A DNA stretch of 64,000 nt, from the IMG/VR virus record IMGVR_UViG_3300042458_002038, positions 1-64,000 of that record; one strand, written 5' to 3'. Positions 10,650 to 63,343 of this stretch are shown here, one piece after another. The notes beneath the pieces were generated by a model that was not told the origin of the DNA, searched no databases, and was given only the letters and a program-made list of their open reading frames with translations. This stretch comes from a virus. How positions within the stretch are numbered: position 1 is the first letter of the stretch; each line of letters begins with the position of its first letter. The position numbers and the translations under genes are program-made.

Positions 10650-11516
10650 TTATTTGGTGAAAAATTCTGATGCACTGCTAATAAGCATATTGCAACGTTT
10701 AGATATCAGATAGTTAAGAACCTTACTATTGTTTTTAACTGGAGCTGAGTTGTATTCTGTAAGGATAGCATCACGCACTTCCGCAGGCACTCGCTCAAGA
10801 TCAATCACGGTACGGTTACGAATATAATTGCGGTAAGTTTCCTCAGGCATAACATTTTGCAGCTTGCCAGCTTTATCAGCTGAGATCCATTCATCAATTT
10901 TAGTTGCACGCAATGCGGTTTGACGAATGCTATCAGTAAATGTATTGTCGGGACTAAGAACATTTGGTACGCCATCACCGCTATCACCTTTGAGAACATG
11001 CTCCATCAGATAACGTGCAGGATTTTTATCGCTAATAAGCTTCTTGGTCATTGGACTCCATTGTGCGACATTATCATATCGCTGCAATTGAATAAAGTCT
11101 TTGTCGGCACTAATAATCATGACTGGCTCATAGTTGCCAAATTCTTGAGTGGTTTCTACGAGTGCAGCAATAACATCGTCAGCTTCTGCCTTATCAGTTT
11201 GTACTACAGTGTATGGCAAATGCTCGACAATTTCAGCTTTGACATTATTGAGAATGCGGAAGATTTCCTTCCAGTCCATGCTGCTTTCTTCGCGATTCTT
11301 ACGGCGTGCTGCTTTATATTGTGGATAGTAATCTTTGCGCCAGCTGCCGCCGTCGCAGGCAATAACCATCTTACCATACTTATCACGGTACTTGAGGTTA
11401 TACATGCGCAGGCTATTTAGAATAATATGTCGAAGAAAGTCTTCTTCAATTTTATTGCTCTTTGCTTGGCTAAAGACACTTGAAATGGCGATTCCGCTAT
11501 AGTCGATTATAATCAT
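10650..11516 (-). CDS. rnh: RNase H (T4 Rnh-type 5' nuclease)
   Basis: 288 residues of the FEN/5'-nuclease superfamily. Acidic metal ligands appear in order: IIIDYSG (N-terminus), IACDGGSWRK, TDKAEADDVIA, IISADKDF, then KGDSGDGVPN (helix-hairpin-helix). Removes RNA primers from Okazaki fragments with gp43 and gp45. First gene downstream of early promoter E5. Confidence 0.95.
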   Translation of the reverse strand: MIIIDYSGIAISSVFSQAKSNKIEEDFLRHIILNSLRMYNLKYRDKYGKMVIACDGGSWRKDYYPQYKAARRKNREESSMDWKEIFRILNNVKAEIVEHLPYTVVQTDKAEADDVIAALVETTQEFGNYEPVMIISADKDFIQLQRYDNVAQWSPMTKKLISDKNPARYLMEHVLKGDSGDGVPNVLSPDNTFTDSIRQTALRATKIDEWISADKAGKLQNVMPEETYRNYIRNRTVIDLERVPAEVRDAILTEYNSAPVKNNSKVLNYLISKRCNMLISSASEFFTK

Positions 11517-25085: not shown

Positions 25086-25090
25086 AATGT

Positions 25091-25098
25091 TATTTATA
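25091..25098 (-). promoter_or_regulatory. Late promoter for HEG D
   Basis: TATAAATA 5 nt before the ATG at 25085, inside the start-codon hairpin. Confidence 0.72.
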
Positions 25099-25154
25099 AT
25101 ATACCCACATTGAAGACGCTAGCTTCGGCTATGTGTTGTTTAAATGATAACATA

Positions 25155-26462: not shown

Positions 26463-27373
26463 TTATATTCAATTCCTTTGCGTCCACCTACTGGACTGAT
26501 TACAATGCGTGTGCCTTTTACGCCAGCATCACTACGATCACCTTTGTATATAGCCATAAGAACCGGATCATATCCATCGCCATCTACGCTATCACCATTA
26601 TAATGAACGTGATTGGCAGACAATTCATAATGCTTACCCTTCTTGACGAGTTTAACTGGTCCTTGCAACAGCATGCTAACATTTTGTTGACCAAGTGTGC
26701 CACCGTACTTATTGCCATATACACTAAGCATTTTCAACTTGTCATCTTTAATTTTACGATATAGTGTAGTAGCAGGTGGCAAACCATCAGGATAATCTCT
26801 TTTAAGATCGGCTATAAATTTTTGAGTTTCTTTGTGAGCAAAAATTGTTGGTTCTTTTGCTGAACTTATACCACCCCATTGTTGAAAGTCTTTTGCTTTA
26901 TTGCCATCTTTATGTGATAGCCAAACAATCTCTTTGCCGTCAATATCCAATAAGTGAAAGTCGCTCTTAGGAGTTCCTGCAGTACTAGCTGCACCATACA
27001 CATCATAAGTTTTATTGCCAACTTTTATTTTGATTGTAGCAGCGGCAATGTCGCTTTTTGCAGCATCAATTTGTTCTATCAAAGAAGCCAATTCGCGGTC
27101 CTCTTTAACAGTTCCGCCGCCGCTACCACGCCCACCAAATTCTGAATTTTTTGCAATATCCTTTAGCGAATATGTATTGCCTTTGCCATCAAGTAATCGT
27201 ATAGCGCTTGTGGGCAGTCTTTTGGTAATGATGTTGATAACGTCTTTAGCTGGTATGAATACCACTTTTTTGCCATTCTCCAATTCAAACGCTTCACTGT
27301 TCTTAAGTTTTTTAAGAAAAACTTCGGCACGCCAATCGTACTTATATAATTCTTTTCCGGCTAAGTTTGACAT
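26459..27373 (-). CDS. Paralog of the 25155-26462 protein without leader
   Basis: 304 residues. Starts MSNLAGKELYKYDWR, i.e. directly at the homologous domain, and keeps LKDIAKNSEFGGRG. No capsid-targeting leader is visible, which makes it a natural comparison for its neighbour. Late box 15 nt upstream. Function unknown. Confidence 0.6.
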   Translation of the reverse strand: MSNLAGKELYKYDWRAEVFLKKLKNSEAFELENGKKVVFIPAKDVINIITKRLPTSAIRLLDGKGNTYSLKDIAKNSEFGGRGSGGGTVKEDRELASLIEQIDAAKSDIAAATIKIKVGNKTYDVYGAASTAGTPKSDFHLLDIDGKEIVWLSHKDGNKAKDFQQWGGISSAKEPTIFAHKETQKFIADLKRDYPDGLPPATTLYRKIKDDKLKMLSVYGNKYGGTLGQQNVSMLLQGPVKLVKKGKHYELSANHVHYNGDSVDGDGYDPVLMAIYKGDRSDAGVKGTRIVISPVGGRKGIEYK

Positions 27374-29406: not shown

Positions 29407-30807
29407 TTAGATTTTAAAATCGTCAAACTTATTACTTCGTGCTGCTCCGCTTCGCCCTGCAGCAAAAGGAGTTTGTGGAGCAGATTGCGAAGAGTCATCA
29501 CTCATAATATTTGCGGTTGGATCGCTAACATCATACAGTCTCATCTTTGCAAGATCGATGCCAATTGTGAATCGTTTATTAGTTGATGAATCATTGTAAC
29601 GATTCTTAAGTTGTTTGACCATAATTTGATTCATCTTGTCAAGTTGTTCTGTACGAATAAATGCAATCATCAAGTCAGCGGTTGCAGGTAGTCCAAAACT
29701 TTCGCTGGTATCCGTAATTTCAATATCCGACGATTGATATCCCGATCGTGTAACTTGAGTTGCACTCCAAATGGGTACATTAAATTCAACAGCCAATCCG
29801 CGAATCTCTTCGGCAATACTTTTAATAAGACTATATGTATTGATGCTTCCGCTCAATCCTTTCATACGGCTGCTCGCGCAAATGTTTAGATAGTCAATAT
29901 AAATGATGTCTGGCTCAAACTTCTTTTTTAATTTTAGTTCAAGCAACAATGCGCGGAAGTGACCGACATGTGCACTCGCAGTTGGATATTCCTTAACAAC
30001 AAGTTTGCCTTTGGTTTTATCACTGATACCTTTAACCTTATTATTGAATGATGCTTTAGTCAAGTCCTTCAACTGATCAATACGCACATCGAATAGATTG
30101 GCATCAATACGCTCAGCAATCTTTTCTTCGGCCATTTCCATTGTGATATACAATACGTTGCGCCCTTCTGATAGTGCTGCACTAGCCATATGGCACATAC
30201 CTAAACTTTTTCCGCAGGCTGTGCCAGCCAAGATGATGTTGAGCGTCTTGCGAGGAATACCTCCGCCTGTAATGGTGTTAAGCATTTCAAGGTCAAATGC
30301 AATTTTATCTTCGGTCTTGTGGTAAAAGTCATAGCGGCTTTCAGCATTCTCAAGATAGTCATGTCCAACATTTGTATCAAAGGTAACACTCAATGCATTG
30401 CTAAGAATGGTTGGAATTGCACCTTCGGTTTGATCTTTACTTTTGCCGTCAATAATACTGACAGCTTCCATAATTGCAAGATGCACAGCACGATCCTTAC
30501 ACCACTTTTCAGTGTTGTCCACCAGCCAATCATAGTCAACACTTGCAGGACTATCAATATCACGAATGCTACTCAACACTTCATGATGGTCATTGCGATT
30601 AATGTAATCGCTATTTTGAAACTCAATGTCTAGTACGCTGCTAGTTGGCAGCTTGTTGTACTTACTGATAAATGACAAGATCAGCTCATACAATACTTTG
30701 TGCTGCCCTTCAAAGTATTCGGGTTTTAAATGAGGAAGCGCTTTGCGCGTAAACATTTCATTTTGTATCAGGTTTTTAATGATTATTTCCTCAAGATTCT
30801 TTTGCAT
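29407..30807 (-). CDS. 41: Replicative DNA helicase (T4 gp41/DnaB type)
   Basis: 466 residues. Start taken at ATG 30807, preceded by GGAAACAACG; an in-frame TTG lies 12 nt earlier. RecA-fold helicase with Walker A GTACGKS, Walker B-region DIIYIDYLNI, and the SATQVTRSG segment. Unwinds the fork and, in T4, recruits the primase. Order uvsX, small gene, gene 41 is typical of T4-like phages. Confidence 0.93.
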   Translation of the reverse strand: MQKNLEEIIIKNLIQNEMFTRKALPHLKPEYFEGQHKVLYELILSFISKYNKLPTSSVLDIEFQNSDYINRNDHHEVLSSIRDIDSPASVDYDWLVDNTEKWCKDRAVHLAIMEAVSIIDGKSKDQTEGAIPTILSNALSVTFDTNVGHDYLENAESRYDFYHKTEDKIAFDLEMLNTITGGGIPRKTLNIILAGTACGKSLGMCHMASAALSEGRNVLYITMEMAEEKIAERIDANLFDVRIDQLKDLTKASFNNKVKGISDKTKGKLVVKEYPTASAHVGHFRALLLELKLKKKFEPDIIYIDYLNICASSRMKGLSGSINTYSLIKSIAEEIRGLAVEFNVPIWSATQVTRSGYQSSDIEITDTSESFGLPATADLMIAFIRTEQLDKMNQIMVKQLKNRYNDSSTNKRFTIGIDLAKMRLYDVSDPTANIMSDDSSQSAPQTPFAAGRSGAARSNKFDDFKI

Positions 30808-31099
30808 CGTTGTTTCCAATTTTAAATTCGCTTTGTGATAATAGATGATTTAGTAAGTCTCCAATATGATTCTTAAAGTCAGTGTCTTTGTCTAGAGATT
30901 CCTTAAGCAGCCCTTCTGGAGTGCTTTCAATCTTATAGACAAATGAAACCTTCAAGACATCATTTTCTTTGTCCTCAGTAAGGCGGGTGCGTCCATATGT
31001 ATAGATCACACCCGCCCAACGTCCAGACAATAATTTTATCGAGTATTGATCGCTATGTAAATCATTTTCGACAAAAATATAGTCTTTTTTCTCAGTCAT
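30791..31099 (-). CDS. Conserved protein between uvsX and gene 41
   Basis: 102 residues from MTEKKDYIFVE. Contains YSIKLLSGRWAGVIYTYG, conserved in proteins encoded at this position in T4-like phages. Overlaps uvsX-C by 8 nt and gene 41 by 17 nt. Function unknown. Confidence 0.7.
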   Translation of the reverse strand: MTEKKDYIFVENDLHSDQYSIKLLSGRWAGVIYTYGRTRLTEDKENDVLKVSFVYKIESTPEGLLKESLDKDTDFKNHIGDLLNHLLSQSEFKIGNNDAKES

Positions 31100-31670
31100 C
31101 TGTTTGTTCTTCAGGCGATTCTTCAAAGGTGATTGCACTCTCAGGAACACGATCAAGATTAACTTCAACGTCATTCATCATGTCGCGCAGGCCGATGGTA
31201 TACTTGTTTTTGAGATATTCCGCAAAGTCAGTATTCTTAAATACAGTCTCCCAGAATTCTTTAGTCATGGTTTGAGCAGCACGCAGGTTGCCAGTCAACT
31301 CAACATCCTTTGCAATGTCCCATGCTTGGTACCAACCATTCTTTGGCTTGCGAACATAGCCACCAAGAATAGCAATATCCAATAGGCCGCTCCATTTTTG
31401 AACGCCACCTTCCCAGCTTACGCTGATTGGAATTTTGCTTTTTTCTTTAACAAAGCGACTCTTTTCTACATTGATTACAAAGTGATAACCTTGAATTTCA
31501 GTACCATCTTTATCTTGTTGGCGACCAATAATCCAAACATTGTCCGCACTATACATGATGCCTGTGTTATGCGTCACAACACCATTCTTAAGAATATAGT
31601 GTTCAGCATCTTTAACGCTAAGGTCATATACTTTTTGCCGCCCTATTGATTTAATTTCTTTAATTTTCAT
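31092..31670 (-). CDS. uvsX-C: UvsX C-terminal half preceded by a split-intein C-fragment
   Basis: 192 residues. Residues 1-35 are a C-intein ending VVTHN; the extein resumes at Thr36 with TGIMYSADNVWIIG, the recombinase segment expected after UvsX-N. Splicing with UvsX-N would give about 368 residues. The ATG lies 8 nt after the -10 of its own promoter E7, so the mRNA is nearly leaderless. Ends with an acidic tail. Confidence 0.92.
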   Translation of the reverse strand: MKIKEIKSIGRQKVYDLSVKDAEHYILKNGVVTHNTGIMYSADNVWIIGRQQDKDGTEIQGYHFVINVEKSRFVKEKSKIPISVSWEGGVQKWSGLLDIAILGGYVRKPKNGWYQAWDIAKDVELTGNLRAAQTMTKEFWETVFKNTDFAEYLKNKYTIGLRDMMNDVEVNLDRVPESAITFEESPEEQTDD

Positions 31671-31678
31671 TATGTTAT

Positions 31679-31707
31679 ATTATAATATATTTTCTTCTGT
31701 TTGTAAA
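31679..31707 (-). promoter_or_regulatory. Early promoter E7 (uvsX-C)
   Basis: -35 TTTACA (31702-31707) within the endonuclease 3' end, 17 bp, -10 TATAAT (31679-31684). Gives uvsX-C expression independent of the upstream genes. Confidence 0.85.
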
Positions 31708-32558
31708 GGTCTTTTTTTACATTTATCGCCATGCCATCTTTTAAAATTTGATGTGTCTATATCTCTATTGCAATGCTTGCATGTTTGCATTTGAAGACCT
31801 TGAGTAATTACTTTATAACGATATGGGTTAATCCATTCATCGGAATCTAGCTGTATTGCTTCATGTTTACTGACACGGATATTTTCACCAGTGATAACAT
31901 TTTTTAATGTTACAAGATCAGATCTACCTATTTTAGCTTTCCATTCTGGAGTGCGGTTTATTTTAGCTACATTTTCTCTAAACCATTCAATATCTTCAGG
32001 CTTTCTTTTATTGCCTTTATTTTTATCTCCAATAATTTTTCTAGTTTCTTCAGTATGGGTTTTTCCATAAAAACCGTTATCTTTACCAGAACGAATGATT
32101 TTTTGTTTGGTTTCTTCTGATAATTTATTGCCAAACGTCACACCAACATATTCACCATTTAATACTGATGAGTCATCTCTGGAAAGTCTAACAATCTTTC
32201 CAGTTTCTTTGTTTTTATATGTAGCATAATTTGGATTATGAAATGTATTTTCCATTGCTATAGATTTATTAAAATATTCCGGTGATGACACTGCAGATAC
32301 TTTTATTTGTTCTTCCGCTTCACGCTGAAGAACTTTTTCATAATCTTCAGACGAATATAAAATTTCTATTTCACATATATCAGATTGCACCATCTCTTTA
32401 TAGTTTTCCCATGTTGAAGATCCATAATAAGGTTTATTACGGCCGTCATATATTATGCCATTCTTAAAAGAGCAATTTGACTTTGATCCAATATAAAGGT
32501 ATGGTAAAATACCAGCAACTTTGCGTTTACTAAATGTTATTTTATATACTAAGTTCAT
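31680..32558 (-). CDS. GIY-YIG homing endonuclease in the uvsX split (HEG E)
   Basis: 292 residues. GIY-YIG-like core NLVYKIT...YLYIGSK, conserved Arg/Glu region (LQREAEEQ), NUMOD3-type segments (LSEETKQKI, GKTHTEETRK) and a C-terminal C-x2-C-x10-H-x4-C finger. Located between the intein halves; it probably mobilises the disrupted uvsX. An 18-bp perfect inverted repeat (32550-32567 / 32578-32595) covers its start codon. Confidence 0.9.
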   Translation of the reverse strand: MNLVYKITFSKRKVAGILPYLYIGSKSNCSFKNGIIYDGRNKPYYGSSTWENYKEMVQSDICEIEILYSSEDYEKVLQREAEEQIKVSAVSSPEYFNKSIAMENTFHNPNYATYKNKETGKIVRLSRDDSSVLNGEYVGVTFGNKLSEETKQKIIRSGKDNGFYGKTHTEETRKIIGDKNKGNKRKPEDIEWFRENVAKINRTPEWKAKIGRSDLVTLKNVITGENIRVSKHEAIQLDSDEWINPYRYKVITQGLQMQTCKHCNRDIDTSNFKRWHGDKCKKRPLQTEENIL

Positions 32559-32599: not shown

Positions 32600-33514
32600 T
32601 CAGATCAATACTTTACAATCTTGTCCAACCGTTAGGTCTTTTGCTTCTACCCAAAGGTCATCAATCATGAATTTGTGTTTATCACTGCAAACAATGGTGT
32701 GGCCATCCTCAAATGTAACTTCATAACATTCCGGTTCGCCTTCATCGAGCGTGTCTGGATTCCAAACAGCAGTAACTTCTTTAGGGCCATCTAATGTTTG
32801 AACATTATCACCAGCAATAAAGTCTTCAACCGGTTTAGTTGTTCCATCAGGCAGAGTAATAAGAGTTCCCGCAGCAACACAACCTCCACTAACAATAGCT
32901 TTTGGGAACAATCCAATTTCTTGATAGGTATGGTTGATTGCAAGCAAGCAAATGTTTTTCATTGTAAGGTATGGCGTAACCATACGGAACAATCCTTTAA
33001 GCGCTTTAGCACGAGTCATGTCGGCCACGCTCTTTTCATTCATTGCATCTTCCAATTCTTTTTTGGACGCAAGGTTACCAACACTATCAATAACAATAAT
33101 TACTTTATCCTTGCGCTCCATCTGCTCAAGTTGATTCACAATATCAAACTTGAGTTCTTCAATATTTTTAATGGGAATATGCAATACTCGGTTGGTATCA
33201 ATACCAAAGCTTTCAAAGTATTGCTGAGGACTACCAAATTCACTATCATAAAACATAAGACAAGCATCTTTATGTTTCTTAAGATATGCACCGGCCATAA
33301 GCAATGCAAAGCTAGTCTTAAAGTGCTTTGATGGACCAGCAAGAACGGTAAGGCCGCTGGTCAATCCACCGTCAATACTGCCACTTAATGCGACATTGAC
33401 CATTGGTACACTTGTGGAGGTGATGTCTTTTTCAGCATAAAAATCGCTGTCAGCCAAGACGTCGGCTTCTTTAATTCGGCAATTCTTTTTTAGTTTTTCT
33501 AGTACAGATGACAT
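32600..33514 (-). CDS. uvsX-N: UvsX N-terminal half followed by a split-intein N-fragment
   Basis: 304 residues. Extein 1-211: RecA-fold recombinase with Walker A GPSKHFKTS (60-68), IIVIDSVGNL (Walker B) and SGG at the end. Cys212 begins the N-intein (CVAAGTLITLPDG; block B-like GHTIVCSDKHKF) of 93 residues. Catalyses strand exchange after trans-splicing with the 31670 product. Driven by early promoter E8. Confidence 0.93.
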   Translation of the reverse strand: MSSVLEKLKKNCRIKEADVLADSDFYAEKDITSTSVPMVNVALSGSIDGGLTSGLTVLAGPSKHFKTSFALLMAGAYLKKHKDACLMFYDSEFGSPQQYFESFGIDTNRVLHIPIKNIEELKFDIVNQLEQMERKDKVIIVIDSVGNLASKKELEDAMNEKSVADMTRAKALKGLFRMVTPYLTMKNICLLAINHTYQEIGLFPKAIVSGGCVAAGTLITLPDGTTKPVEDFIAGDNVQTLDGPKEVTAVWNPDTLDEGEPECYEVTFEDGHTIVCSDKHKFMIDDLWVEAKDLTVGQDCKVLI

Positions 33515-50808: not shown

Positions 50809-51993
50809 TTAGTCCTTATACGGATCATACACATCGGCACCTGCCATAGCAACGCCTAATGGCTTCAGCTGATGTAGGATTTGCACGGTATCACCTTGAG
50901 CAGCCAACACATCGGTCAAACGCTTGTAGGCATGTGGGCTTTCATCACATCCTCCACCACGCAGCTCAACATTTGCATCGGATAGCCATTGGTCCATCAT
51001 GTGTTGTGAAACTTTACCTTCACTAACACGAACTTTTTGACCGCCTTTCCATTTGCATTTGCCAGCAGCTTCAGTACGGCTCATGACACGACCAGCACCA
51101 TGAACGGTTGAATAGAGTGCAGCTGCCGACAAGTCGCTTTGCGCACCTTGCAAGATAACACTGTTTTCTCCCATGGTACCACCAACAAATCCACGTTGCC
51201 CTGGCCAAGCTGGAGTTGCACCTTTACGAACAACCCACAGGTCAACACCTTGATGCTGTTCGCGCCAAGCATAGTTGTGGTGATTGTGAACTTCATCAAT
51301 GATGTCGGCAGACAGGATTCGTGCAACTTCAGCGCACACCCAATCACGACCAGCATATGCATAGTCACCTGCCAATTGCATTGCAGCGATATATTCACGA
51401 CCAAGATCGGTATGCACATCAAGCAACACTGGATCCACAAGGATTCCATCAGTCCCACCGCCAGCTTTGATGTAATGCGAAGCAATTTTGTGGCCAAGAC
51501 CGCGGCTGCCAAAGTGAACGCCAATCCAGATACGCTCCGCTTCATCTGCAAAGATGTCAACATAATGGTTGCCGCTGCCTACAGTACCCAATTGACCGCG
51601 AGCCATATCTTTAAGAGGGCTCAGCATTTCAATGTCAGACCATTGATCAGCATCAAACAATTCATGGTCAACTTTGGTTTTGTTTACACGACCAATTCCA
51701 AACGAGACATTGGCTACAACTTCATCCATGATGCGTGAAATATCACCTTTCACGTCGGAAAGAGTAGCGTTGGTAAGCACTGCTTTGTTGCCACAGCCAA
51801 TGTCAAAACCTACACCGCTTGGCGAGATGTGATCACGATAAGCAATCACACCGCCCACAGGAACGGCATAACCTAGATGATGATCGGCCATCAAAGCGGC
51901 AGCATGCGCACCTTTGCGCAAGCAGTTGTCCATTTGATCCACTGCGTTTTGCAATGGGTCTCCAAATACTGAGATGTTGTTTAAAACTTTCAT
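50809..51993 (-). CDS. rtcB: RtcB-type RNA ligase
   Basis: 394 residues. RtcB signatures: HHLGYAVPVGGV, SGVGFDIGCGNKA (Mn-binding Asp/Cys), HFGSRGLGH, HNHHNYAW and GAGRVMSRTEA near the C-terminal half. Joins 2',3'-cyclic phosphate (or 3'-phosphate) ends to 5'-OH ends with GTP. In a phage it could reseal tRNAs cut by host anticodon nucleases. Confidence 0.95.
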   Translation of the reverse strand: MKVLNNISVFGDPLQNAVDQMDNCLRKGAHAAALMADHHLGYAVPVGGVIAYRDHISPSGVGFDIGCGNKAVLTNATLSDVKGDISRIMDEVVANVSFGIGRVNKTKVDHELFDADQWSDIEMLSPLKDMARGQLGTVGSGNHYVDIFADEAERIWIGVHFGSRGLGHKIASHYIKAGGGTDGILVDPVLLDVHTDLGREYIAAMQLAGDYAYAGRDWVCAEVARILSADIIDEVHNHHNYAWREQHQGVDLWVVRKGATPAWPGQRGFVGGTMGENSVILQGAQSDLSAAALYSTVHGAGRVMSRTEAAGKCKWKGGQKVRVSEGKVSQHMMDQWLSDANVELRGGGCDESPHAYKRLTDVLAAQGDTVQILHQLKPLGVAMAGADVYDPYKD

Positions 51994-53464: not shown

Positions 53465-53472
53465 TATTTATA
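53465..53472 (-). promoter_or_regulatory. Late promoter
   Basis: TATAAATA, 5 nt before the ATG at 53459. Confidence 0.72.
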
Positions 53473-54409
53473 AGCTTCGTACTGCAAAATCAATTGCTCT
53501 CGCACTTTCATTTTCCATTGGGCGGTTCTTATACCAGCCGCCAGTATCATTGTCTATATCTTTACACAGGCGCGCAACTTCAGCTGATGTAATAGGATAA
53601 CCTCTTTTCATTGCGTTTGCGGCAATACTCATCATAATCTTATACATCATATGATACCAGCCGCCAGCTTGGATGGTACGATACTCTGCAACCATTCGCT
53701 TGTTGACAAATGGGCAATCGGCATATGAAGTCCACTTGTATGATGTGTTGGTTAACTTTTCTTTGCGGTATTGCTCAATCTTACGACGCATTTCTTCAGG
53801 CAGTTTATCAGACAATGATAGGCGCTGAAGGTTACCAGTCCATGGATGCTTTGCCATAATCTCATACGGATCAATCATTGGCGCTTCACGGTTGCTAAAG
53901 ATAAACTTTTTGGAGTTTGGATAAAGTGCTGGCACATAATACATTCGGCTTAAGTCTTTGGTTTGAGGATCGCCCAATCCATTATACTCTTTATTTAAAG
54001 CATACCAAAGGTGACGTATGCGATCCGCCGGCACTTCACATGTAAGAGGCAATACCACTCTAAACTTTGGATGCTCGTCGGTTGAGCTGGCAGAGCTGTA
54101 ACATACATATCTCACATCTCTAAATACACTTATTGCATCCATCCAATGGCCTTCATATGTGTCAACATCAAGTGCCGCCCAACCAGCCCACGCTGTTACA
54201 TTAGCATTTGCTCGAGTAGTGCCAGCCGTAAATATCGCTGGACTAATAAGTGCACTGCCATCTTTACGCTCATCCTTCTTCGGCTTGTACCCAGGTTGAT
54301 CGCTCAACTTGTATAGCAATCTTTCAAATGCGTCCCATGTATTAAATGACAATTGACGGTGTGTCTTGTTGTCATAGATACTTTTAAAGATGGTCAGACT
54401 ATACTTCAT
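53468..54409 (-). CDS. Primase-like (archaeo-eukaryotic primase superfamily) protein
   Basis: 313 residues. AALDVDTYEGHW (D81, D83) is the AEP-type acidic pair; YVCYSSASSTDEHPKFRVVLPL follows as in RepB/PrimPol-like primases. The C-terminal half is helical, with a possible PriCT-like region. T4 uses a TOPRIM primase (gp61), which is not in this window. Overlaps the MazG-like gene by 4 nt. Confidence 0.65.
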   Translation of the reverse strand: MKYSLTIFKSIYDNKTHRQLSFNTWDAFERLLYKLSDQPGYKPKKDERKDGSALISPAIFTAGTTRANANVTAWAGWAALDVDTYEGHWMDAISVFRDVRYVCYSSASSTDEHPKFRVVLPLTCEVPADRIRHLWYALNKEYNGLGDPQTKDLSRMYYVPALYPNSKKFIFSNREAPMIDPYEIMAKHPWTGNLQRLSLSDKLPEEMRRKIEQYRKEKLTNTSYKWTSYADCPFVNKRMVAEYRTIQAGGWYHMMYKIMMSIAANAMKRGYPITSAEVARLCKDIDNDTGGWYKNRPMENESARAIDFAVRSL

Positions 54410-54918
54410 GCGTGATCAGCAAATGCTTTTTGGATAAGTCCATGATTGCCTGTATGATCTGGAGCGCACCAGTTGTCCGGTTTAATCAAATCAGGTAATG
54501 AAAGTGGGTTTGGTCTGCTCTCTTTAATTCCAACGCGCTTAGTCATGTTTGCTTGCAGCACTTCAAACCAGGCTTTTTGAAAATCAACTTGAAGCAGGTC
54601 TAGTGTACCAGCCGCTACAACAATAATATCTATCAGGCTGTCAACAATTTCTTCACTGTTGCGCTCAATGATTGCAGCCTTGCCTTCATTAACTTCTTCT
54701 TGCAAAAAGTCATAACGGAATTTGATAAAGCTGGTTAGATTATCAGCTGATAAGTTTTCAACTGCATCATTGACTCCATAATACTGATGCATCATATGCA
54801 TATCGGTACTAACGTCTTCTTCAACACGTTTGCCACAGGCCCAGAGTTCAAGAATCTGTTCCCAACGGTGTGCTGCTTGTCTTTGCATATGTGCTTCTGG
54901 TGTATTTGTGGTATTCAT
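54406..54918 (-). CDS. MazG-like NTP pyrophosphohydrolase
   Basis: 170 residues. Helical metal-binding motif LQEEVNEGKAA (EExxE-like) and VDSLIDIIVVAAG (E/D-x3-D). All-alpha NTP-PPase fold. Could serve as the dCTP/dUTP-clearing activity expected with a hydroxymethyl-dCMP pathway, or in nucleotide house-cleaning. Confidence 0.75.
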   Translation of the reverse strand: MNTTNTPEAHMQRQAAHRWEQILELWACGKRVEEDVSTDMHMMHQYYGVNDAVENLSADNLTSFIKFRYDFLQEEVNEGKAAIIERNSEEIVDSLIDIIVVAAGTLDLLQVDFQKAWFEVLQANMTKRVGIKESRPNPLSLPDLIKPDNWCAPDHTGNHGLIQKAFADHA

Positions 54919-54931
54919 ATATTGTAATTTA

Positions 54932-56014
54932 TTAACAGAAAAAGTCTTCTAGACTTGCACGCGGTTCTGCGCTCCAGCCAATTGCATCAAGAATAAGTTC
55001 AAGTGGTTCAATGAAAGTCTTGTTGAACTGATGATCATAATTGACATACTTGTTCATATCAAATTCAACTGGCAGTGTATCCACAAATCCAATAACATTT
55101 TCGGCTGTTGGGTTGGGCATCTTGAGAGGAATGTATTTGATACGGTCACCGCTTTGGATTGGTTGATATGTATCGGATAATCCTTTCTGCTTAAGCATAT
55201 GATTATACATTAGAGCAGCACGCACATGCATTGGTGTACCTTTCTTATAGATGGTTTGTTTATCACGCCACTTTACAATATCAGTAATACCTCGTGGAAA
55301 AGCAACCTGTTCAATTGGGATGGTTGCAAAATGCGCACGAAACATTGCAATTGCAGCCTGCGTCTTAGCTTCATCCTCATTGATAATAATCTTAAAGATT
55401 TCCTTGAATGCGCCGCGGCATACTTTAGGAGTACTGCTTTTGATTGCTTCGATACCCATCATTTTGATTTTTGGTTCGGTATACTGCACTCCTTCATTGT
55501 TGTGAATATTAAGAATGTATCGCTTCTTAGCAGTCCAGATTCCACGGTCAGCAATAGCCTCCCGCTTCATAACCATTGCAGGTTTATAAACATTGGTAAG
55601 ATCGGCAAGGCTATCAAATGCTTTCTTAAGCATCGGCTCAACGGCCTTGCTGCCAAATTCATCAAGGAATGCAACTGGATTGTTGGGCTTAAACTTTTCA
55701 ATCACATCTTTTACGTGAATATACAAACTGTCCGTGTCAGCTGCAATAACTCGATCCACAACGCCGTCATCCTTAAGGAATTTGCTAAGCCAAACATTAG
55801 CATGCTCTTCAGCCCAGCGAATAACCAACTGACCAGTAAGAGTAATACCTTCAGCAACTGCAATATCAAAGTAACGGAAATAGTTGTTGCCGATAGCACC
55901 GTAAAGTGAATTGAGCAAAATCTTTAGACACATCTGTTCTGTCTCAAGACGTGAAATTTCGGTTTCAAGAACCGCAAGCTGTGATTTAAGTTGTGTATCA
56001 GTTAAGTGCGTCAT
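54932..56014 (-). CDS. 43B: DNA polymerase gp43, C-terminal half
   Basis: 360 residues. Starts in a helix, then motif B KILLNSLYGA (about 30-39) and motif C DTDSLYIHV (about 92-100), thumb, and a C-terminal tail GASLEDFFC-type clamp-binding end (RASLEDFFC). Family-B polymerase C-part that must associate with the 56784-58310 product; no intein sequence at the break. Its ATG overlaps the endonuclease gene by 17 nt. Confidence 0.92.
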   Translation of the reverse strand: MTHLTDTQLKSQLAVLETEISRLETEQMCLKILLNSLYGAIGNNYFRYFDIAVAEGITLTGQLVIRWAEEHANVWLSKFLKDDGVVDRVIAADTDSLYIHVKDVIEKFKPNNPVAFLDEFGSKAVEPMLKKAFDSLADLTNVYKPAMVMKREAIADRGIWTAKKRYILNIHNNEGVQYTEPKIKMMGIEAIKSSTPKVCRGAFKEIFKIIINEDEAKTQAAIAMFRAHFATIPIEQVAFPRGITDIVKWRDKQTIYKKGTPMHVRAALMYNHMLKQKGLSDTYQPIQSGDRIKYIPLKMPNPTAENVIGFVDTLPVEFDMNKYVNYDHQFNKTFIEPLELILDAIGWSAEPRASLEDFFC

Positions 56015-56747
56015 ATAATTTATTAAAACAATTCATTTTAGTTTGGTGAATTTCTTTATCGGAAAATCTTATTACAGTATAGCCTTCAGATACTGCAAAT
56101 GAATCAAATGCATTGTCTTTGGTCTTTTGTTGTTCATTTTCATGCCAGTATTCTCCATCTATTTCTACTAGAAGCCTACGGTTAATAATAACAAAATCAA
56201 ACCTATGTGTAAATGGTTTAATTTGGAATTGGCGACTATATTCAATTTCATTTTTATCGCACCATGCGGCAAAGAGTCGTTCTGGTTTAGTAAAACGGTA
56301 TTTTCCTTCAGTGACACGGTGTACTCCAATTTCCCCATTAAAGCATTTTTCTTGTTGAGTTTTTCTCTTTTCGGGTGTCCATAATCTATTGGTATAATCA
56401 CTCATTCTTTTTGGTGTTAAGCCATATCTCTTAACAAGACCGCATATGGTGGCTTTAACTGAACCAATCTCATTTGCTATTTCTTGATAAGTCATATTTT
56501 TTTCATACAACATTATCTTAAGAGTTTCTTCATCAAGTAATGGTTTATGTGAATCTGCCATTCTTTGCCTGACTACTTTACTTTTTGAGTGAGAAAGTAA
56601 ATCAGGAAATTCACTTTTTATTTTTTTATAAAATGCGTGATAATTCAATGAATGTTTTTCACATAAGAAACCTAATGAATTTCCTGATTGAATTTCCGAT
56701 ACTACCGTATCGTAATGCTGGTCTAACTGATATTGATATTTTGGCAT
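55998..56747 (-). CDS. Vsr-like (EDxHD-type) homing endonuclease in gene 43 (HEG F)
   Basis: 249 residues. Two N-terminal helix-turn-helix segments, then a Vsr-like nuclease domain with RFDFVI, VEIDGEYWH and the KDNAFDSFAVSEGY helix. Located at the gene 43 break. A late box sits in a 14-bp hairpin (56744-56759 with 56776-56789, TT bulge) that includes its start codon and the stop codon of 43A. Confidence 0.88.
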   Translation of the reverse strand: MPKYQYQLDQHYDTVVSEIQSGNSLGFLCEKHSLNYHAFYKKIKSEFPDLLSHSKSKVVRQRMADSHKPLLDEETLKIMLYEKNMTYQEIANEIGSVKATICGLVKRYGLTPKRMSDYTNRLWTPEKRKTQQEKCFNGEIGVHRVTEGKYRFTKPERLFAAWCDKNEIEYSRQFQIKPFTHRFDFVIINRRLLVEIDGEYWHENEQQKTKDNAFDSFAVSEGYTVIRFSDKEIHQTKMNCFNKLYDALN

Positions 56748-56789
56748 AATTAAGTATAAGCGTGTTCATTAGTATTTATACTTTTATGC
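56744..56789 (-). promoter_or_regulatory. Start-codon hairpin with late promoter, HEG F
   Basis: Arms GCATAA-AAGTATAA / TTATACTT-AA-TTATGC on the minus strand. TATAAATA is at 56773-56780; ATG 56745-56747 lies in the 3' arm. Confidence 0.75.
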
Positions 56790-58310
56790 TTTTGCGCCTC
56801 TTCTTTTTAGTTCCTCTAAGATGGTTTCCTTTTCCTTTTTCTTGCGAATCATTTCAGCTTTGATGCCTACACGACGATTGTATAGCTCCTCAATAATCTC
56901 TGGAAGGAATCCTTGCTTATCACGACGGAAGCATGCGCCGTTTGCAGCAACCGCAAGATTCGGCTCAGGGCTGATGTGAGTCTTGTTGGTCAATACAACG
57001 TCAGGATTCATGCTTGGCAGATGCATATGTCGCACGAGTGTTTCAGGACTCATGTTGTACTGAATAATGATGTTGGGGTAAAGACTGTTAAGGTCAAAAC
57101 TCATAACCCAATCATACATGCCGGGAACCACTTCCTTGACAAATCCACCTGGGTAGCTAACCTTTTGACTTGGGCGACTTGGCGGCACTGCAATCTTTTT
57201 TAATGCAAGGCGACGGAAGATGATGCTATCCCAAATGGCAACCGTACCTAGTGTATCGCTATAGTTGACACCACCAAAATATGCTAGCGTAAACACAAGG
57301 TTAATCAATCCCAGCTTGGCTTCAAAGCGTTCAATAAGTTCAACGTCAACAATGTTGTAGTCCACAAACTTTTGGAAGTCCCGCTCATACAGTTTGGCAA
57401 GCGTGCCTTCTTCGCCATAGTCCAACTTGTTTTGGCCAAGAACAACTTCAGCAATATGATCCAACTTGTAGCTTTCTTGTTTGCCATAAGTATTGAGTGT
57501 AAACTTTTGGAACAGATCCATATAGTCAAGTTGCTGAATGCCAGCGATGTTATAGAGAGTATTCTCACGGCCTTTCACAGTAACCGTCTTTTGCTCAATC
57601 TTTCCCCATGGGCTCAGCTTGCTAGCTTCATCACTACCCAATACTCTACTGATACGATTCACAAGGTAAGGAACATCAAAGAGTGTGGTATTCCAACCGG
57701 TAACCACATCAGGCATATTAAGAGTATCACTCCACCAAGCGATAAAGTCCAGCAGCATTTCGGCTTCGGTTTCAAATTGACGATACTCCTTTTTAAGATG
57801 TGGAATGCTGCTGGCGCTACTATCATAATCCTTTAGTCCCCACACAATGTATTGCTCAGCTCTGCTGCTCTTTAGTGCAATGGTCAATACGCTATGACGT
57901 GCCTCACTAGGCTCAGGGAAACTTGTGGTTGTCACGCCTGGGATTACCCCATAAGCAGTCTCAATATCAATGTATGCAATGTCAATAAGGCGGCGATCAT
58001 ACTTAATTTCATTGGGAAACTCTGCTTGAATGAAAGCAGGAATATGACGGTCATTTCCATAGATTTTAAAGTTGGGAACACCTTCATAGCTTTTTGCAAA
58101 CTCACGGCACTCACTCATACTATCAAATCTCATCGGCTCAAGTGGGAGACCTTCAAGGCTGCGCCACTTTGCAGCTTTATCCTTACTTTCCAGATACATT
58201 ACTGGACGGAATTTGTAACTGTTGTAAACCTTTTTACCTTCGTCATCATAGCCGCGATAGCGCAGGCTGTTCATATGGCGGTCAATGCAAGTATAGAATC
58301 CGTTAATCAT
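56784..58310 (-). CDS. 43A: DNA polymerase gp43, N-terminal half
   Basis: 508 residues. 3'-5' exonuclease elements IAYIDIETAYG, GWNTTLFDVPYL and FVDYNIVDVELI, then palm motif A DLNSLYPNI (about 409-417). It ends in a basic fingers helix (IRKKKEKETILEELKRRG). The break falls before motif B. Driven by early promoter E15; ATG 8 nt after the -10. Confidence 0.93.
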   Translation of the reverse strand: MINGFYTCIDRHMNSLRYRGYDDEGKKVYNSYKFRPVMYLESKDKAAKWRSLEGLPLEPMRFDSMSECREFAKSYEGVPNFKIYGNDRHIPAFIQAEFPNEIKYDRRLIDIAYIDIETAYGVIPGVTTTSFPEPSEARHSVLTIALKSSRAEQYIVWGLKDYDSSASSIPHLKKEYRQFETEAEMLLDFIAWWSDTLNMPDVVTGWNTTLFDVPYLVNRISRVLGSDEASKLSPWGKIEQKTVTVKGRENTLYNIAGIQQLDYMDLFQKFTLNTYGKQESYKLDHIAEVVLGQNKLDYGEEGTLAKLYERDFQKFVDYNIVDVELIERFEAKLGLINLVFTLAYFGGVNYSDTLGTVAIWDSIIFRRLALKKIAVPPSRPSQKVSYPGGFVKEVVPGMYDWVMSFDLNSLYPNIIIQYNMSPETLVRHMHLPSMNPDVVLTNKTHISPEPNLAVAANGACFRRDKQGFLPEIIEELYNRRVGIKAEMIRKKKEKETILEELKRRGAKA

Positions 58311-58879: not shown

Positions 58880-59794
58880 CTATTTATTCTTATTAGATGA
58901 AAATTCTTTAAAAGAAAGCAATTTTCTTGAACTAATAATCTCAAAGAAAGTCTTTGCGGTTTGACCATTTAGTTTATCATAACTAAAATGTACGCTGCTA
59001 TAAATTGGGCGATAGTGTAGTGTGCGCTCTTTACAAGTGATAAGCAACTGACCAGTGGTAACCATATCGCCTTTGCCTGGGTCTCCCATACGAACTGGGT
59101 TCATAAATGGGTCATCATTAGGCTTTTGACTCATTGCCTCAAGAAAGTCAACGGGATTGTTAATCTCAACATCACGCAGGTAGTTGTTGATTATTTTCCA
59201 TCTCTCTTCACTGCTTTGTCGTGATTGGATGATTTTTGGGTCCGTCGCATTTGCACTATATCCCAGCTGTGTAAGATCAATGCCGTGGTTAGTACGCACA
59301 CAATGATTATCATCTTTGGTAATTTCCTTTAGGTTGTAAATGTATTTGCGTGGCTTCTTATCAGTACTATCTGACTTTTTAACCGTAAAACCACCTTCAA
59401 GAAGATAGCATTTGTCGCTATTGAAAATAAAGGTTGCACCTGCAAGTTCCTTTTCAATAAGCATCTTTGCTGCGCTCTTAGGATCTTTACACAACAAGGA
59501 ATTGCGAATAGCAAGACCGTCAGGCGATACCATTGCTTTCTTTTTGCCTTTCTTAGCTAATACTTTACCACCTTCTTTTTCGTCACTCTTGACACTAAAA
59601 CTAGCACTGATAATCGCTACGCCATATTCATTGATGCCTTCAGTCCAGCGTGTAGTCTGATCATCAATGTATAAGCGTTGAATGTTTTCTCTGTTGGAGT
59701 TAACAATTTCTATTTCGGTTTTATAGTTGCGGTCACGATTCTTAGCGCCAACCCAACCATAGTTCTTAATGTATTTAACGGCAATGCAGCACAT
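58880..59794 (-). CDS. Ntn-hydrolase-type protein with N-terminal Cys
   Basis: 304 residues. MCCIAV places a Cys at position 2 as probable autocatalytically exposed nucleophile; VGAKNRDRNY and WTEGINEYGVAIISA match the choloylglycine hydrolase/C45/NRDE type of Ntn fold, and VRTNHG is conserved in it. Substrate (peptide or amide) unknown. Lies between regA and hsp20. Confidence 0.72.
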   Translation of the reverse strand: MCCIAVKYIKNYGWVGAKNRDRNYKTEIEIVNSNRENIQRLYIDDQTTRWTEGINEYGVAIISASFSVKSDEKEGGKVLAKKGKKKAMVSPDGLAIRNSLLCKDPKSAAKMLIEKELAGATFIFNSDKCYLLEGGFTVKKSDSTDKKPRKYIYNLKEITKDDNHCVRTNHGIDLTQLGYSANATDPKIIQSRQSSEERWKIINNYLRDVEINNPVDFLEAMSQKPNDDPFMNPVRMGDPGKGDMVTTGQLLITCKERTLHYRPIYSSVHFSYDKLNGQTAKTFFEIISSRKLLSFKEFSSNKNK

Positions 59795-59861: not shown

Positions 59862-60290
59862 TCATTTCTTTTTGATGTTGCCAATACTATATTTTGAGCG
59901 AAGATCCCATTGACTTTTCACAGCATGAGATATAATCTTAATCTGCTTAAGCGAAGTAATTTCTTTGATACTTTCGGCGTTATCCACTCGCACCAATCCC
60001 CAGTCGCTTAACAGTGTAATGATGGTATTGCGGCGACAATAGTCATCGTGTGTAAAGTTTGACGGTTTACCATCAAGCATAAAGAGTTCTTTAAAGTGAA
60101 CAATAAAGTAACGCCCTTGCTTGTGTAAAATATGACAGCTTTGGTATAGTACATTTAAATCTCTTTTGGAACTTACGCCAATACGACTTAAGGTTTCCTT
60201 TACCTTTAAGAAATCATCAGGCTCATTCAAATGAACTTCAACCATATCGGTAGGAGCCCATTCAATAACATTTTGTGAATTGTCATACAT
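59862..60290 (-). CDS. regA: RegA translational repressor
   Basis: 142 residues. From residue 16 it aligns closely with T4 RegA (PDDFLKVKETLSRIG, NVLYQSCHILHKQG, YFIVHFKELFMLDG, DWGLV). Binds start regions of early mRNAs to repress translation. T4 RegA begins at the equivalent of residue 16 (60245), so the first 15 codons may be untranslated or an extension. Confidence 0.93.
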   Translation of the reverse strand: MYDNSQNVIEWAPTDMVEVHLNEPDDFLKVKETLSRIGVSSKRDLNVLYQSCHILHKQGRYFIVHFKELFMLDGKPSNFTHDDYCRRNTIITLLSDWGLVRVDNAESIKEITSLKQIKIISHAVKSQWDLRSKYSIGNIKKK

Positions 60291-60311: not shown

Positions 60312-60782
60312 TTACTTGCGTCCGCCGCGATCACGACTAGCACGAATAGCTGATAGTGCAGATTCGGACAAAAGCGGTAAAGCTTCACGCGCTTTCTCTG
60401 CACTATAACAATAATGATCCATCAGCATCTGCACATCCGCACCATCATCCATCTTTTTACTCCATTTGCTAAAACGTTTCTTAGCGCGAACTGTATTCTT
60501 TAGAAAGTCATATTGCATCTTGACTGGCAATGATGAGTGTCGATTCATTTCATTAGCGAGCAGAACAGTATCATTAAAGTATGAGAGTCCACGATTTACC
60601 ATGAAAGGTAAGTATGCACGATCCGCGCTAGACGGGTCTGCCGCACCTTCACTATTATCAGCTCTACACGTGTCCAGTAAACTTTTGCCATTTGAGCCTT
60701 CGTTAATACTATTGAGAAAATCAAAAAATGATAATTTCTTAGGAGCTGCGGGTGCGGCAGTTTCTTTTTTCTTGGCTGCCAT
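60312..60782 (-). CDS. 62: Clamp-loader small subunit gp62
   Basis: 156 residues with an Ala/Lys-rich N-terminus. PFMVNRGLSYFNDTVLLANEMN and LPVKMQYDF are the gp62 core. Works with gp44 to load gp45. Starts 1 nt after the gene 44 stop region. Confidence 0.92.
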   Translation of the reverse strand: MAAKKKETAAPAAPKKLSFFDFLNSINEGSNGKSLLDTCRADNSEGAADPSSADRAYLPFMVNRGLSYFNDTVLLANEMNRHSSLPVKMQYDFLKNTVRAKKRFSKWSKKMDDGADVQMLMDHYCYSAEKAREALPLLSESALSAIRASRDRGGRK

Positions 60783-60783
60783 A

Positions 60784-61728
60784 TTACTTGATCCATTCGA
60801 CGTTGCTCATCAGTTCAGTCATGCAGGCAACCATGTTAAGTTCTCTGTCGCTTACAAATGCAGCCTTGTAACTATAGTCTGCAAGAATAAGTACAGCACT
60901 TGGAATGCTGTTGGGTGATGCAGTATCATACAAGCTGTCATAAATCTTGCGGAACACAACGCTGCTATCAAGACTGCTATTATTCACAACCCAGCTGCGC
61001 ATGCTTTTAAAATCCTTAGTGCGCAGGTGTGTTGTAAGTTCAGCGATGTTTTGATCGCTCATTCCTACAAGGATAGCCGTGGGAATCTCGCCGCCTGTAC
61101 TATACCGCTGACACTCATTTAGCACTCGACGCCAGTCGGGAGCATAACGAATAATCAATTCAGCAATGGTTTTATCTTGAAAAGCAACACCTTCGGCTTT
61201 GAGAATAGCACTAAGCCGCTTCATGAAGTCACCAGCCAGACTGGCAAGTTGCTTCTTTGTGGTATTAAATTCAACCACACTGCATCGACTATGAAGCGGC
61301 TCAATGATTCTGTTTTTAAAATTACACGTAAGAATAAATCGGCAATTGTTACTAAACTCCTCGATGAATCCACGAAGTGCAGGCATTGTACTTGTTGGAT
61401 TAAGATAGTCAGCCTCATCGAGAATCACTACTTTATATCCACCAGTCAATGATACTGTACTTGCAAACTGTTTGATTTTATTGCGCAGCACATCAATGCC
61501 ACTTTCCTCACTGCCGTTGATCATGATGTAGTCAAGATCGAGCATGTTGCACAATGCTTTGGCAACAGTAGTCTTACCCAAGCCAGCAGTGCCAGCAAGA
61601 AGCAGGTTGGGCAGCTGTCCTCCCTTCACAATATCATTAAAGGTTTTCTTTAATTCAGCTGGAAGGATACATTCATCAATGTTTTGTGGGCGATATTTTT
61701 CGACCCATAAGAATTCAGAGTTGTTCAT
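60784..61728 (-). CDS. 44: Clamp-loader ATPase gp44
   Basis: 314 residues from MNNSEFLWVEKYRP. AAA+ motifs: Walker A GTAGLGKT, Walker B VVILDEAD, the SRC arginine finger in LHSRCSVV. Forms the 4:1 loader with gp62. Confidence 0.95.
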   Translation of the reverse strand: MNNSEFLWVEKYRPQNIDECILPAELKKTFNDIVKGGQLPNLLLAGTAGLGKTTVAKALCNMLDLDYIMINGSEESGIDVLRNKIKQFASTVSLTGGYKVVILDEADYLNPTSTMPALRGFIEEFSNNCRFILTCNFKNRIIEPLHSRCSVVEFNTTKKQLASLAGDFMKRLSAILKAEGVAFQDKTIAELIIRYAPDWRRVLNECQRYSTGGEIPTAILVGMSDQNIAELTTHLRTKDFKSMRSWVVNNSSLDSSVVFRKIYDSLYDTASPNSIPSAVLILADYSYKAAFVSDRELNMVACMTELMSNVEWIK

Positions 61729-61768
61729 AATATAGTTTAGTTCTTGTGTGTATTTTGGTTGCAACAGT

Positions 61769-62668: not shown

Positions 62669-63343
62669 TTATGCGTTGTAGCTGCTTGTCTTTTCAAGAG
62701 CAATGTAGTAATTGATTGGCGCCGTGTTGTTGGTCCAATGACTGATCAGCTTGCTGCTAATCTTAACTTCATAATCGCCTGGGATTACTTTAAGATTAGC
62801 AATAAGGAATTGAAGATCAAAGTTGTTTTTATTGTCGTTAGAGTCATCAAGAACAACCGTAAAGCTATTGGCCGTACTGTTCTTTGGATCAACTACGCTA
62901 AGTGTAATAACTCCGGCTTCTCCACCAATGCTTACAATGGTATGACCAAGGACGCCTGCAGCTTTACGAATTTGACTAAGCAGGTCGCTATCAATATTTA
63001 CAATCACATCTGCTGAAGGCATAGTGATTTTACTTTTGGGCGTGGTCAAAATGCTTTGATCTGCAAAGCGATAACTTGCTTTGGTGCGGCCGCTCTTGAA
63101 CACAACACTGTCTGCTGTGAAGTCAAGGTCAGGATCAGTCATCAATGAAAACATACTAATGAATTCATTAAGATCATAGATACCAAATGTGGTTTCAAAC
63201 AGTTCAGTAATTTCAGCGCTTGCCATAATGTTTTTGGCTTCTGAAATGGTTGAGAGTGCTTCTCCGCTTTTGACAATCAGGTTACTGTTGATTGATGCGA
63301 AGTTTTTTAGAATCTCGAGGGTTTGTGTAGATAGTTTTGTCAT
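62669..63343 (-). CDS. 45: Sliding clamp gp45
   Basis: 224 residues, gp45-type clamp: starts with LSTQTLEILKNFASIN, LFETTFGIYDLNEFISMF in the middle, and ends in SSKLISHW and YYIALE. Trimeric processivity factor; in T4 also the mobile activator of late transcription. ATG 7 nt after the -10 of E17. Confidence 0.94.
   Translation of the reverse strand: MTKLSTQTLEILKNFASINSNLIVKSGEALSTISEAKNIMASAEITELFETTFGIYDLNEFISMFSLMTDPDLDFTADSVVFKSGRTKASYRFADQSILTTPKSKITMPSADVIVNIDSDLLSQIRKAAGVLGHTIVSIGGEAGVITLSVVDPKNSTANSFTVVLDDSNDNKNNFDLQFLIANLKVIPGDYEVKISSKLISHWTNNTAPINYYIALEKTSSYNA

Follow-up and report, generated by a model that had tools for sequence, protein, structure and literature searches.

A T4-like phage encodes an AEP-type primase that probably takes the place of the Toprim primase gp61

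The DNA analysed here (the window) covers bases 1 to 64,000 of a virus record that is 73,720 bases long (73.7 kb, partial) and, since it belongs to a record of that size, the phage genome was considered incomplete. At 53468..54409, on the minus strand like all window genes and domains given below, lies a gene for a 313-aa protein, which we assigned as an AEP-type primase, a primase of the kind that archaea and eukaryotes use, from its open reading frame, its match to PHROG 9765, an AlphaFold2 model with its fold matches, and purifying selection. Its start codon is overlapped by four bases (ATGA) by the stop codon of a gene for a MazG-like pyrophosphohydrolase (54406..54918; PF01503, E 1.3e-6; phrog_671). 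Next to these are the C-terminal part (54932..56014; phrog_262, E 2.6e-131) and the N-terminal part (56784..58310; phrog_262, E 1.4e-165) of the gp43 DNA polymerase, both also matched by T4 gp43 in tblastn, followed by RegA (59862..60290; 47% identity to T4 RegA), the clamp-loader subunits gp62 (60312..60782; tblastn) and gp44 (60784..61764; phrog_168, E 7.8e-119; tblastn), and the sliding clamp gp45 (62669..63343; PF09116, phrog_223; tblastn). The DnaB-like replicative helicase gp41, the expected partner of a primase, is encoded ~23 kb from the AEP gene (29407..30819; phrog_19, E 9.2e-125; 41% identity to T4 gp41), UvsX lies ~20 kb or more away, and a T4-type RNase H/5' exonuclease is found at 10650..11516 (phrog_107, E 2e-54; tblastn with a Vibrio phage RNase H). 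Beyond the window, the record encodes gp46, gp47, gp55 and UvsW by tblastn. Because T4 replication genes were found by tblastn across the record, we regard the phage as T4-like. An earlier note, made from the window sequence, had placed a primase-like protein among replication genes, and this location held, with split gp43, gp44, gp62, RegA and gp45 nearby and gp41 and UvsX farther off.

Several other features of the region were recorded. The two gp43 parts (508 + 360 aa, 54932-58310) are separated by a gene for a DUF559/Vsr-like homing-type endonuclease (55998..56747; PF04480, phrog_9084, phrog_559), and an endonuclease match in this position was seen in 3 of 179 related loci. UvsX is likewise split, into two ORFs with intein-like ends (32600-33514 and 31092-31670): the first continues past approximately residue 212 of UvsX, with a Cys start like that of an intein, and the second opens with an intein-like stretch having a His-Asn end before Thr. 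A NUMOD3 homing-endonuclease gene (31680-32558) sits between the two, and the whole resembles a split intein accompanied by a homing endonuclease encoded on its own. A 304-aa ORF without a convincing family match (58880-59794) is kept near RegA and gp43 in 32/179 loci, and a gene for an RtcB-type RNA ligase near the primase (50809-51993; PF01139, E 3.9e-67) was matched in one locus of the 179, within the flanks. The motif TATAAATA occurs at 19 sites in the window, 18 of them on the minus strand, where 5.6 were expected (none of 100 shuffles reached 19); one site overlaps the stop codon of the AEP gene (53465-53472). These sites are presumably T4-like late promoters.

The gene neighbourhood was compared in 179 viral loci that had been fetched by AEP homology, 178 of which match the AEP at E 1e-6. 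As far as the flanks of the loci extend, the recurring order was gp45, gp44, gp62, RegA, (Hsp20), gp43, (MazG), AEP, UvsX, gp41. The C-terminal part of gp43 was upstream of the AEP gene on the same strand in all 165 loci that hold both, the N-terminal part of UvsX was downstream on the same strand in 106/106, and gp41 was on the AEP strand in 87/87. This constancy of gp43, UvsX and gp41 over the loci makes the AEP gene part of the core replication cluster. Two Vibrio phages that carry the AEP have a Dda-like helicase (phrog_325) directly downstream of it (L005, 15940-17304; L006, 15932-17284), and their gp41-like helicases are located far from the AEP gene.

The AEP reading frame is a real gene under purifying selection, as nucleotide differences from its relatives fell mainly at third codon positions and dN/dS was low, with values of 0.047, 0.081 and 0.083 against the relatives at loci L009, L012 and L013, respectively (three of six pairs were computable, dS being saturated in the other three). 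A chance reading frame was ruled out by these ratios. Conservation was assessed in an alignment of 52 sequences, consisting of the window protein and 51 relatives 42–88% identical to it, which were picked with an 80% identity cut from 178 profile matches, using ORFs of 280–345 aa outside named phages, plus eight extra.

Sequence searches placed the protein in a known phage family. PHROG 9765 (phrog_9765), annotated 'DNA primase', matched with E 6.8e-53 over a best stretch of residues 1-248, and weaker PHROG matches covered the N-terminal regions of two phage helicase-primase families, phrog_256 and phrog_3228. The window protein matched no Pfam family, PF08800 (BT4734-like_N) matching 17 of the 52 aligned proteins with E values no higher than 1 and a best value of 1.8e-4. 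A sequence search of the PDB gave no match to the window protein and a profile search of the PDB gave two chance-level matches only, and hhalign against the PrimPol of cyanophage S-2L returned none. No Toprim and DnaG core was detected by Pfam, nor did the AEP have a four-cysteine N-terminal zinc ribbon of the gp61/DnaG type: the sole Cys invariant among the 52 is C232, the next best being present in 42/52 and 36/52.

The fold was predicted with AlphaFold2 (mean pLDDT 91.2, pTM 0.63). Foldseek searches of the PDB with this model gave two significant matches, RepB' of plasmid RSF1010 (3H20; E 1.7e-5), which was the best whole-chain match, and the S-2L PrimPol (6ZP9; E 7.6e-5). In VIA comparisons, the S-2L PrimPol aligned with Z 10.4 and an rmsd of 3.2 Å over 144 residues, and the other rows listed for the N-terminal part, at Z 7.5 and below, were AEPs, namely CAPP, RepB', Prim-PolC, LigD-Pol, human and archaeal PriS, human PrimPol, VACV D5 and NrS-1. 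The span of the alignments to AEP chains defines a predicted catalytic domain at residues 1-192 (53834..54409), and rows on the C-terminal part were helical bundles of many kinds. The model thus supports membership of the AEP superfamily, with an AEP fold joined to a C-terminal helix bundle. The domain itself is already known, both as a described superfamily and as a PHROG family.

The bundle (residues 203-313; 53468..53803) was also modelled alone, giving pLDDT 92.1 and pTM 0.84. Its best VIA match was the C-terminal bundle of RepB' (residues 217-300), at 3.1 Å over 75 residues with a Z of 5.7, which is weak and below VIA's own trust level; the Sulfolobus PrimPol 3M1M ranked 14th with a likewise weak Z of 4.2, and Foldseek found nothing significant for this domain. 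In the GP55 replicase of phage 1706, an AEP-like core and an adjacent helical domain are reported to be both required for making RNA primers (PMC12205980). Since GP55 needs both, it is plausible by analogy that an AEP core with a helical domain forms a minimal primase.

Eleven residues that were identical in all 52 proteins (D81, D83, K115, F116, R117, D147, Q149, K151, D152, R155 and M156) fall into blocks resembling the motifs of the AEP superfamily. Motif I (hDhD) is represented by D81-V82-D83 (54161..54169), predicted metal ligands of which D81 and D83 are the invariant pair. The motif II region is K115-F116-R117 (54059..54067), predicted to bind nucleotide and having Lys and Arg in place of the usual His, so that motif II is recognised by K115/R117 and is absent in its strict His form. 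The acidic motif III was assigned by spacing to D147 (53969..53971), a predicted third metal ligand that aligns with an Asp of a Syntrophomonadaceae phage protein; D152 is likewise invariant and may be the ligand instead. Motif IV (Rh) is R155-M156 (53942..53947). Lys/Arg, Gln or Tyr are described for motif II in other AEP families, the His being family-specific (PMC5862659, section 8), and the DR0530-like family is listed there with Arg or Lys at this position (PMC5862659); the same review describes the 'Rh' of motif IV as essential in PolpTN2 (sections 7-9). The active-site residues given for 6ZP9 are E85, D87, T112, K115, H118, D146 and R157, with Y63 as a steric gate (PMC8065100), to which D81, D83, K115/R117, D147, R155 and F60 of the window protein would correspond, a pairing inferred from spacing rather than from residue-by-residue superposition. 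Residue 60 is aromatic in all 52 proteins (31 Phe, 21 Tyr) and stands 21 residues before motif I, the dNTP-selecting Tyr of S-2L standing 22 before. Y63 is said to exclude ribonucleotides in the S-2L enzyme (PMC8065100), and the aromatic residue 60 may by analogy do the same in the AEP. The DxD pair and AEP-like downstream motif of the earlier note were therefore present, as D81-V82-D83 with conserved blocks behind it, and its naming of the protein as an AEP-type primase was borne out by the model fold, the PHROG family and the invariant motifs.

We then examined AEP-bearing genomes for gp61, using as a detector phrog_47, which scores T4 gp61 at 9.1e-106 and also detects DnaG, since it matched ten of the 14 bacteria and archaea used as controls. 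The note had called for a check for gp61 elsewhere in the genome; in the 73.7-kb partial record, neither phrog_47 nor tblastn with T4 gp61 (E up to 0.01) found one, and a Toprim_2 search of the record gave no match. Because the record is incomplete, this settles the status of gp61 in the phage's own genome only indirectly. No phrog_47 match was found in the three named complete carriers (C48C1 and the Vibrio phages V6Aob and henriette 12B8) or in 34 distinct metagenomic carriers; many of the latter are fragments whose lack of a match is weak evidence one by one, and six exceed 100 kb (174, 160, 151, 145, 119 and 106 kb). At 179 AEP loci, tblastn with T4 gp61 (E 1e-6) gave no hit. By comparison, phrog_47 matched 16 of 17 other phages, comprising T4, P-SSM2, S-PM2, HTVC008M, DSL-LC03, P-TIM68, S-SSM7, S-SRM01, S-SKS1, P-RSM6, nt-1, Ac42, Vibrio D509, Rhizobium RHph_I46, Dickeya Ds5CZ and Campylobacter F358; twelve were taken from gp41 match lists and four were picked by name, and some are T4-like only loosely. 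The AEP profile found nothing in these 16 phages and recovered the full protein in C48C1. Among 19 named phages, 16 thus had gp61 only and three the AEP only, and this mutual exclusion supports the note's proposal that the protein might replace gp61; its other proposal, that the protein might supplement gp61, found no co-occurrence in 37 carriers (34 metagenomic, 3 named complete) beyond the phage's own record.

The exception among the 17 was cyanophage S-TIM5, which was added owing to an AEP-like fold match and was set aside from the 19-phage count. It had no phrog_47 match and a partial AEP-profile match (E 6.1e-8); at 23593-26468 (L239), its weakly AEP-matching hypothetical protein adjoins a DUF5906 protein annotated 'DNA primase'. 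A candidate gp61 from a first look at the phage's own record, by phrog_451, fell short of E 0.001 and was dropped. A phrog_451 match in C48C1 (68549-69043; E 4.9e-5, 18 bits) was read as chance because it extends over two small hypothetical genes and corresponds to positions 23-190 of the profile; gp61 matches this profile at 155-459, and the C48C1 match lies mostly outside that part.

The helicase was retained. A phrog_19 search recovered gp41 from the phage's own record and from all three named carriers; of 19 distinct metagenomic carriers examined, 16 had it, two of these as partial matches (G002 and G003). Per search set, 11/13 records (one being the T4 control) and 11/12 records matched, and the three records without a match are of 26, 27 and 70 kb. 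In the window phage, gp41 shares 52–62% identity with its counterparts in nine cyano- and pelagiphages that have gp61. When twelve gp41 sequences were aligned, they showed no large insertion or loss that would mark a change of partner. Trees of gp41 were built from the 16 gp61-bearing phages, C48C1, V6Aob, henriette, nine handle loci and those of loci L021-L116 with an aligned length of 380 aa or more (L121-L200 did not enter directly). Duplicates of T4 and C48C1 were removed before both trees, and Campylobacter F358, Rhizobium RHph_I46 and two identical copies were also removed before the second. In the first tree (46 rows), the AEP label required three changes and its bearers formed one clade in 0% of bootstrap trees, with a warning that the join of the Vibrio pair and Rhizobium RHph_I46 may be false. 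In the second (42 rows), the core AEP group required two changes and was one clade in 2% of bootstrap trees. In AU tests on the second tree, a single clade was not rejected for all AEP carriers (p 0.18), nor was it for the core (p 0.29). The window phage clustered with contigs that carry the AEP, close to cyanophages with gp61, and the pair of Vibrio carriers sat on a long branch with unsure placement. The exchange of gp61 for the AEP may thus have occurred once or several times.

The AEP version is common among environmental T4-like phages and rare among named ones, because scans of viral contigs returned at least 587 AEP relatives among 600 stretches and, in a second scan, at least 600 relatives, compared with five named phages. 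Among 50,697 phage records, six match the AEP over ≥80% of its length (the five named phages, henriette being present twice), and 2,501 encode a gp41-like protein (E 1e-20). A cellular source of the AEP was considered and rejected: a scan of 84,980 genomes gave 79 pattern matches and nine relatives, all in metagenome bins by their titles, which we read as phage contigs in those bins because their flanks were gp43-like in 8/9 and MazG-like in the ninth. A scan of viral contigs with the henriette primase gave nine pattern matches and no relative.

The gp41 helicase and gp61 primase form the textbook primosome. As the AEP stands in this gene cluster where gp61 is missing in the relatives, a central part of the textbook replisome appears to have been exchanged. 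We consider it probable (roughly 0.78) that the AEP makes the lagging-strand primers together with gp41, the Toprim primase gp61 having been replaced non-orthologously in this T4-like lineage. This reading draws on the predicted AEP fold, the motifs, purifying selection, synteny and the exclusion of gp61, from which we infer residue roles, catalysis, primer synthesis, a contact with gp41 and the choice between RNA and DNA primers. K115, R117 and R155 would bind the nucleotide triphosphate, and the C-terminal helix bundle probably holds the template and the initiating nucleotide. On the strand that gp41 extrudes, the AEP would synthesise short primers and hand them to the gp43/gp44/gp62/gp45 replicase, in which gp43 and the clamp would extend them, and the T4-type RNase H would later remove them. 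The simplest reading by parallel with T4, where gp61 activity is reported to depend on gp41 (PMC3012046), is that AEP activity is coupled to gp41. A bolder form, in which across a whole branch of T4-like phages the AEP is a PrimPol coupled to a DnaB-type helicase and initiates Okazaki fragments from primers of DNA or of mixed composition, so that the gp41 family works with two unrelated primases, we regard as rather doubtful; the DNA-primer part was kept open because the aromatic residue 60 may exclude ribonucleotides.

Counted against replacement were the incompleteness of the phage's own genome and of many metagenomic carriers, the distance of the AEP from gp41 in the window, the Dda-like identity of the helicase beside the AEP in the Vibrio carriers, the lack of His in motif II, the reported lack of primase activity in the structurally closest enzyme (the S-2L PrimPol, in standard assays), the weak matches of the helix bundle, and the possibility that host DnaG could do the priming instead. 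Host DnaG would carry ordinary fork priming if the AEP were a PrimPol that serves repriming or translesion synthesis. Primase-polymerases are frequent among AEPs, and the S-2L PrimPol is reported to polymerise without primase activity in standard assays (PMC8065100); the Phe or Tyr at residue 60, near the spacing of the dNTP-selecting Tyr of S-2L, would also suit such an enzyme, and the overlap with the MazG-like gene hints at a link to the nucleotide pool. However, one would expect an accessory PrimPol to be found alongside gp61 in some phages, whereas the two never occurred together in the genomes tested, as expected if they share one role. The AEP moreover keeps its place beside gp43 and UvsX in the replication cluster, and T4 gp41 partners a phage primase (PMC3012046), which leaves an accessory PrimPol unlikely in our judgement.

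That gp61 lies in the missing half of the genome, with the AEP as its supplement, is suggested by the length of the record, 73.7 kb against 156 kb in the complete relative C48C1. Yet phrog_47 matched neither the 34 metagenomic carriers, of up to 174 kb, nor the three named complete ones, as opposed to 16 of 17 other phages, and we hold this to be very improbable. We gave the lowest probability of all to an origin-specific primase like plasmid RepB', with most lagging-strand primers coming from elsewhere. RepB' was indeed the best whole-chain Foldseek match and also, weakly, the best match of the C-terminal bundle, but the lagging-strand primase would then remain missing, and T4 replication is described as starting at R-loops and later needing recombination proteins (PMC3016281). 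With T4-type initiation and gp43, UvsX, gp46/47 and gp41 retained, no origin primase is needed.

Replacement of gp61 by the AEP with helicase and replicase kept would be a natural primase swap that offers a clean test of how a DnaB-type helicase recruits its primase, and it also lets one ask which replisome parts care about primer type. It bears on annotation as well, with five named phages carrying the full-length protein compared to at least hundreds of environmental loci; in C48C1, V6Aob and henriette (NC_021073), the homologue is already annotated 'DNA primase'. A review of T4-like genomes puts gp61 beside gp41 in the core genome (PMC2993671, Table 3, which covers core and quasicore genes), and a comparison of jumbo phages places DnaG-type primases in the T4-related group and AEPs in another (PMC7824862). 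Among the open-literature matches listed, no title or abstract described gp61 of T4-like phages as replaced by an AEP, and such a replacement in an otherwise T4-type replisome is, within those matches, new here.

Compared to known systems, the AEP domain is homologous by profile to those of PHROG 9765, phrog_256 and phrog_3228 (e.g. in Escherichia phage K1ind1). In the two chains checked, that of K1ind1 also carries an AAA domain and that of the Syntrophomonadaceae phage a VapE-like domain; unlike these helicase-fused chains, the window AEP stands as a protein of its own, in a genome that also encodes gp41. RepB' of RSF1010 is likewise a stand-alone, two-domain protein with an AEP core and a C-terminal helix bundle, but it is a plasmid primase with ~10% identity to the window protein, and the motif II residue given for RepB'-like proteins is Gln (PMC5862659, section 8). 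The S-2L PrimPol has the top-scoring AEP core, with similarly spaced acidic residues and motif IV Arg; it differs in being a 737-aa protein with a VapE-like domain, from a phage of 45 kb in whose annotation neither gp41 nor gp43 is named. The replicase GP55 of lactococcal phage 1706 is described as having an AEP-type core that needs its adjacent alpha-helical domain for RNA primers; unlike the window AEP, it fuses helicase, primase and PolB in one chain, and its helical domain is said to be without structural homology to the PrimPol bundle (PMC12205980). With the T4 gp61-gp41 pair, the AEP phage would share the presumed role of the primase, and it has the gp41 helicase family and the replicase in common with T4. 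The genes differ in place, gene 61 of T4 being downstream of gene 41 and the AEP gene lying between those for gp43 and UvsX, and the proteins differ in kind, T4 gp61 combining a zinc ribbon with Toprim and the window primase having the unrelated AEP fold predicted here.
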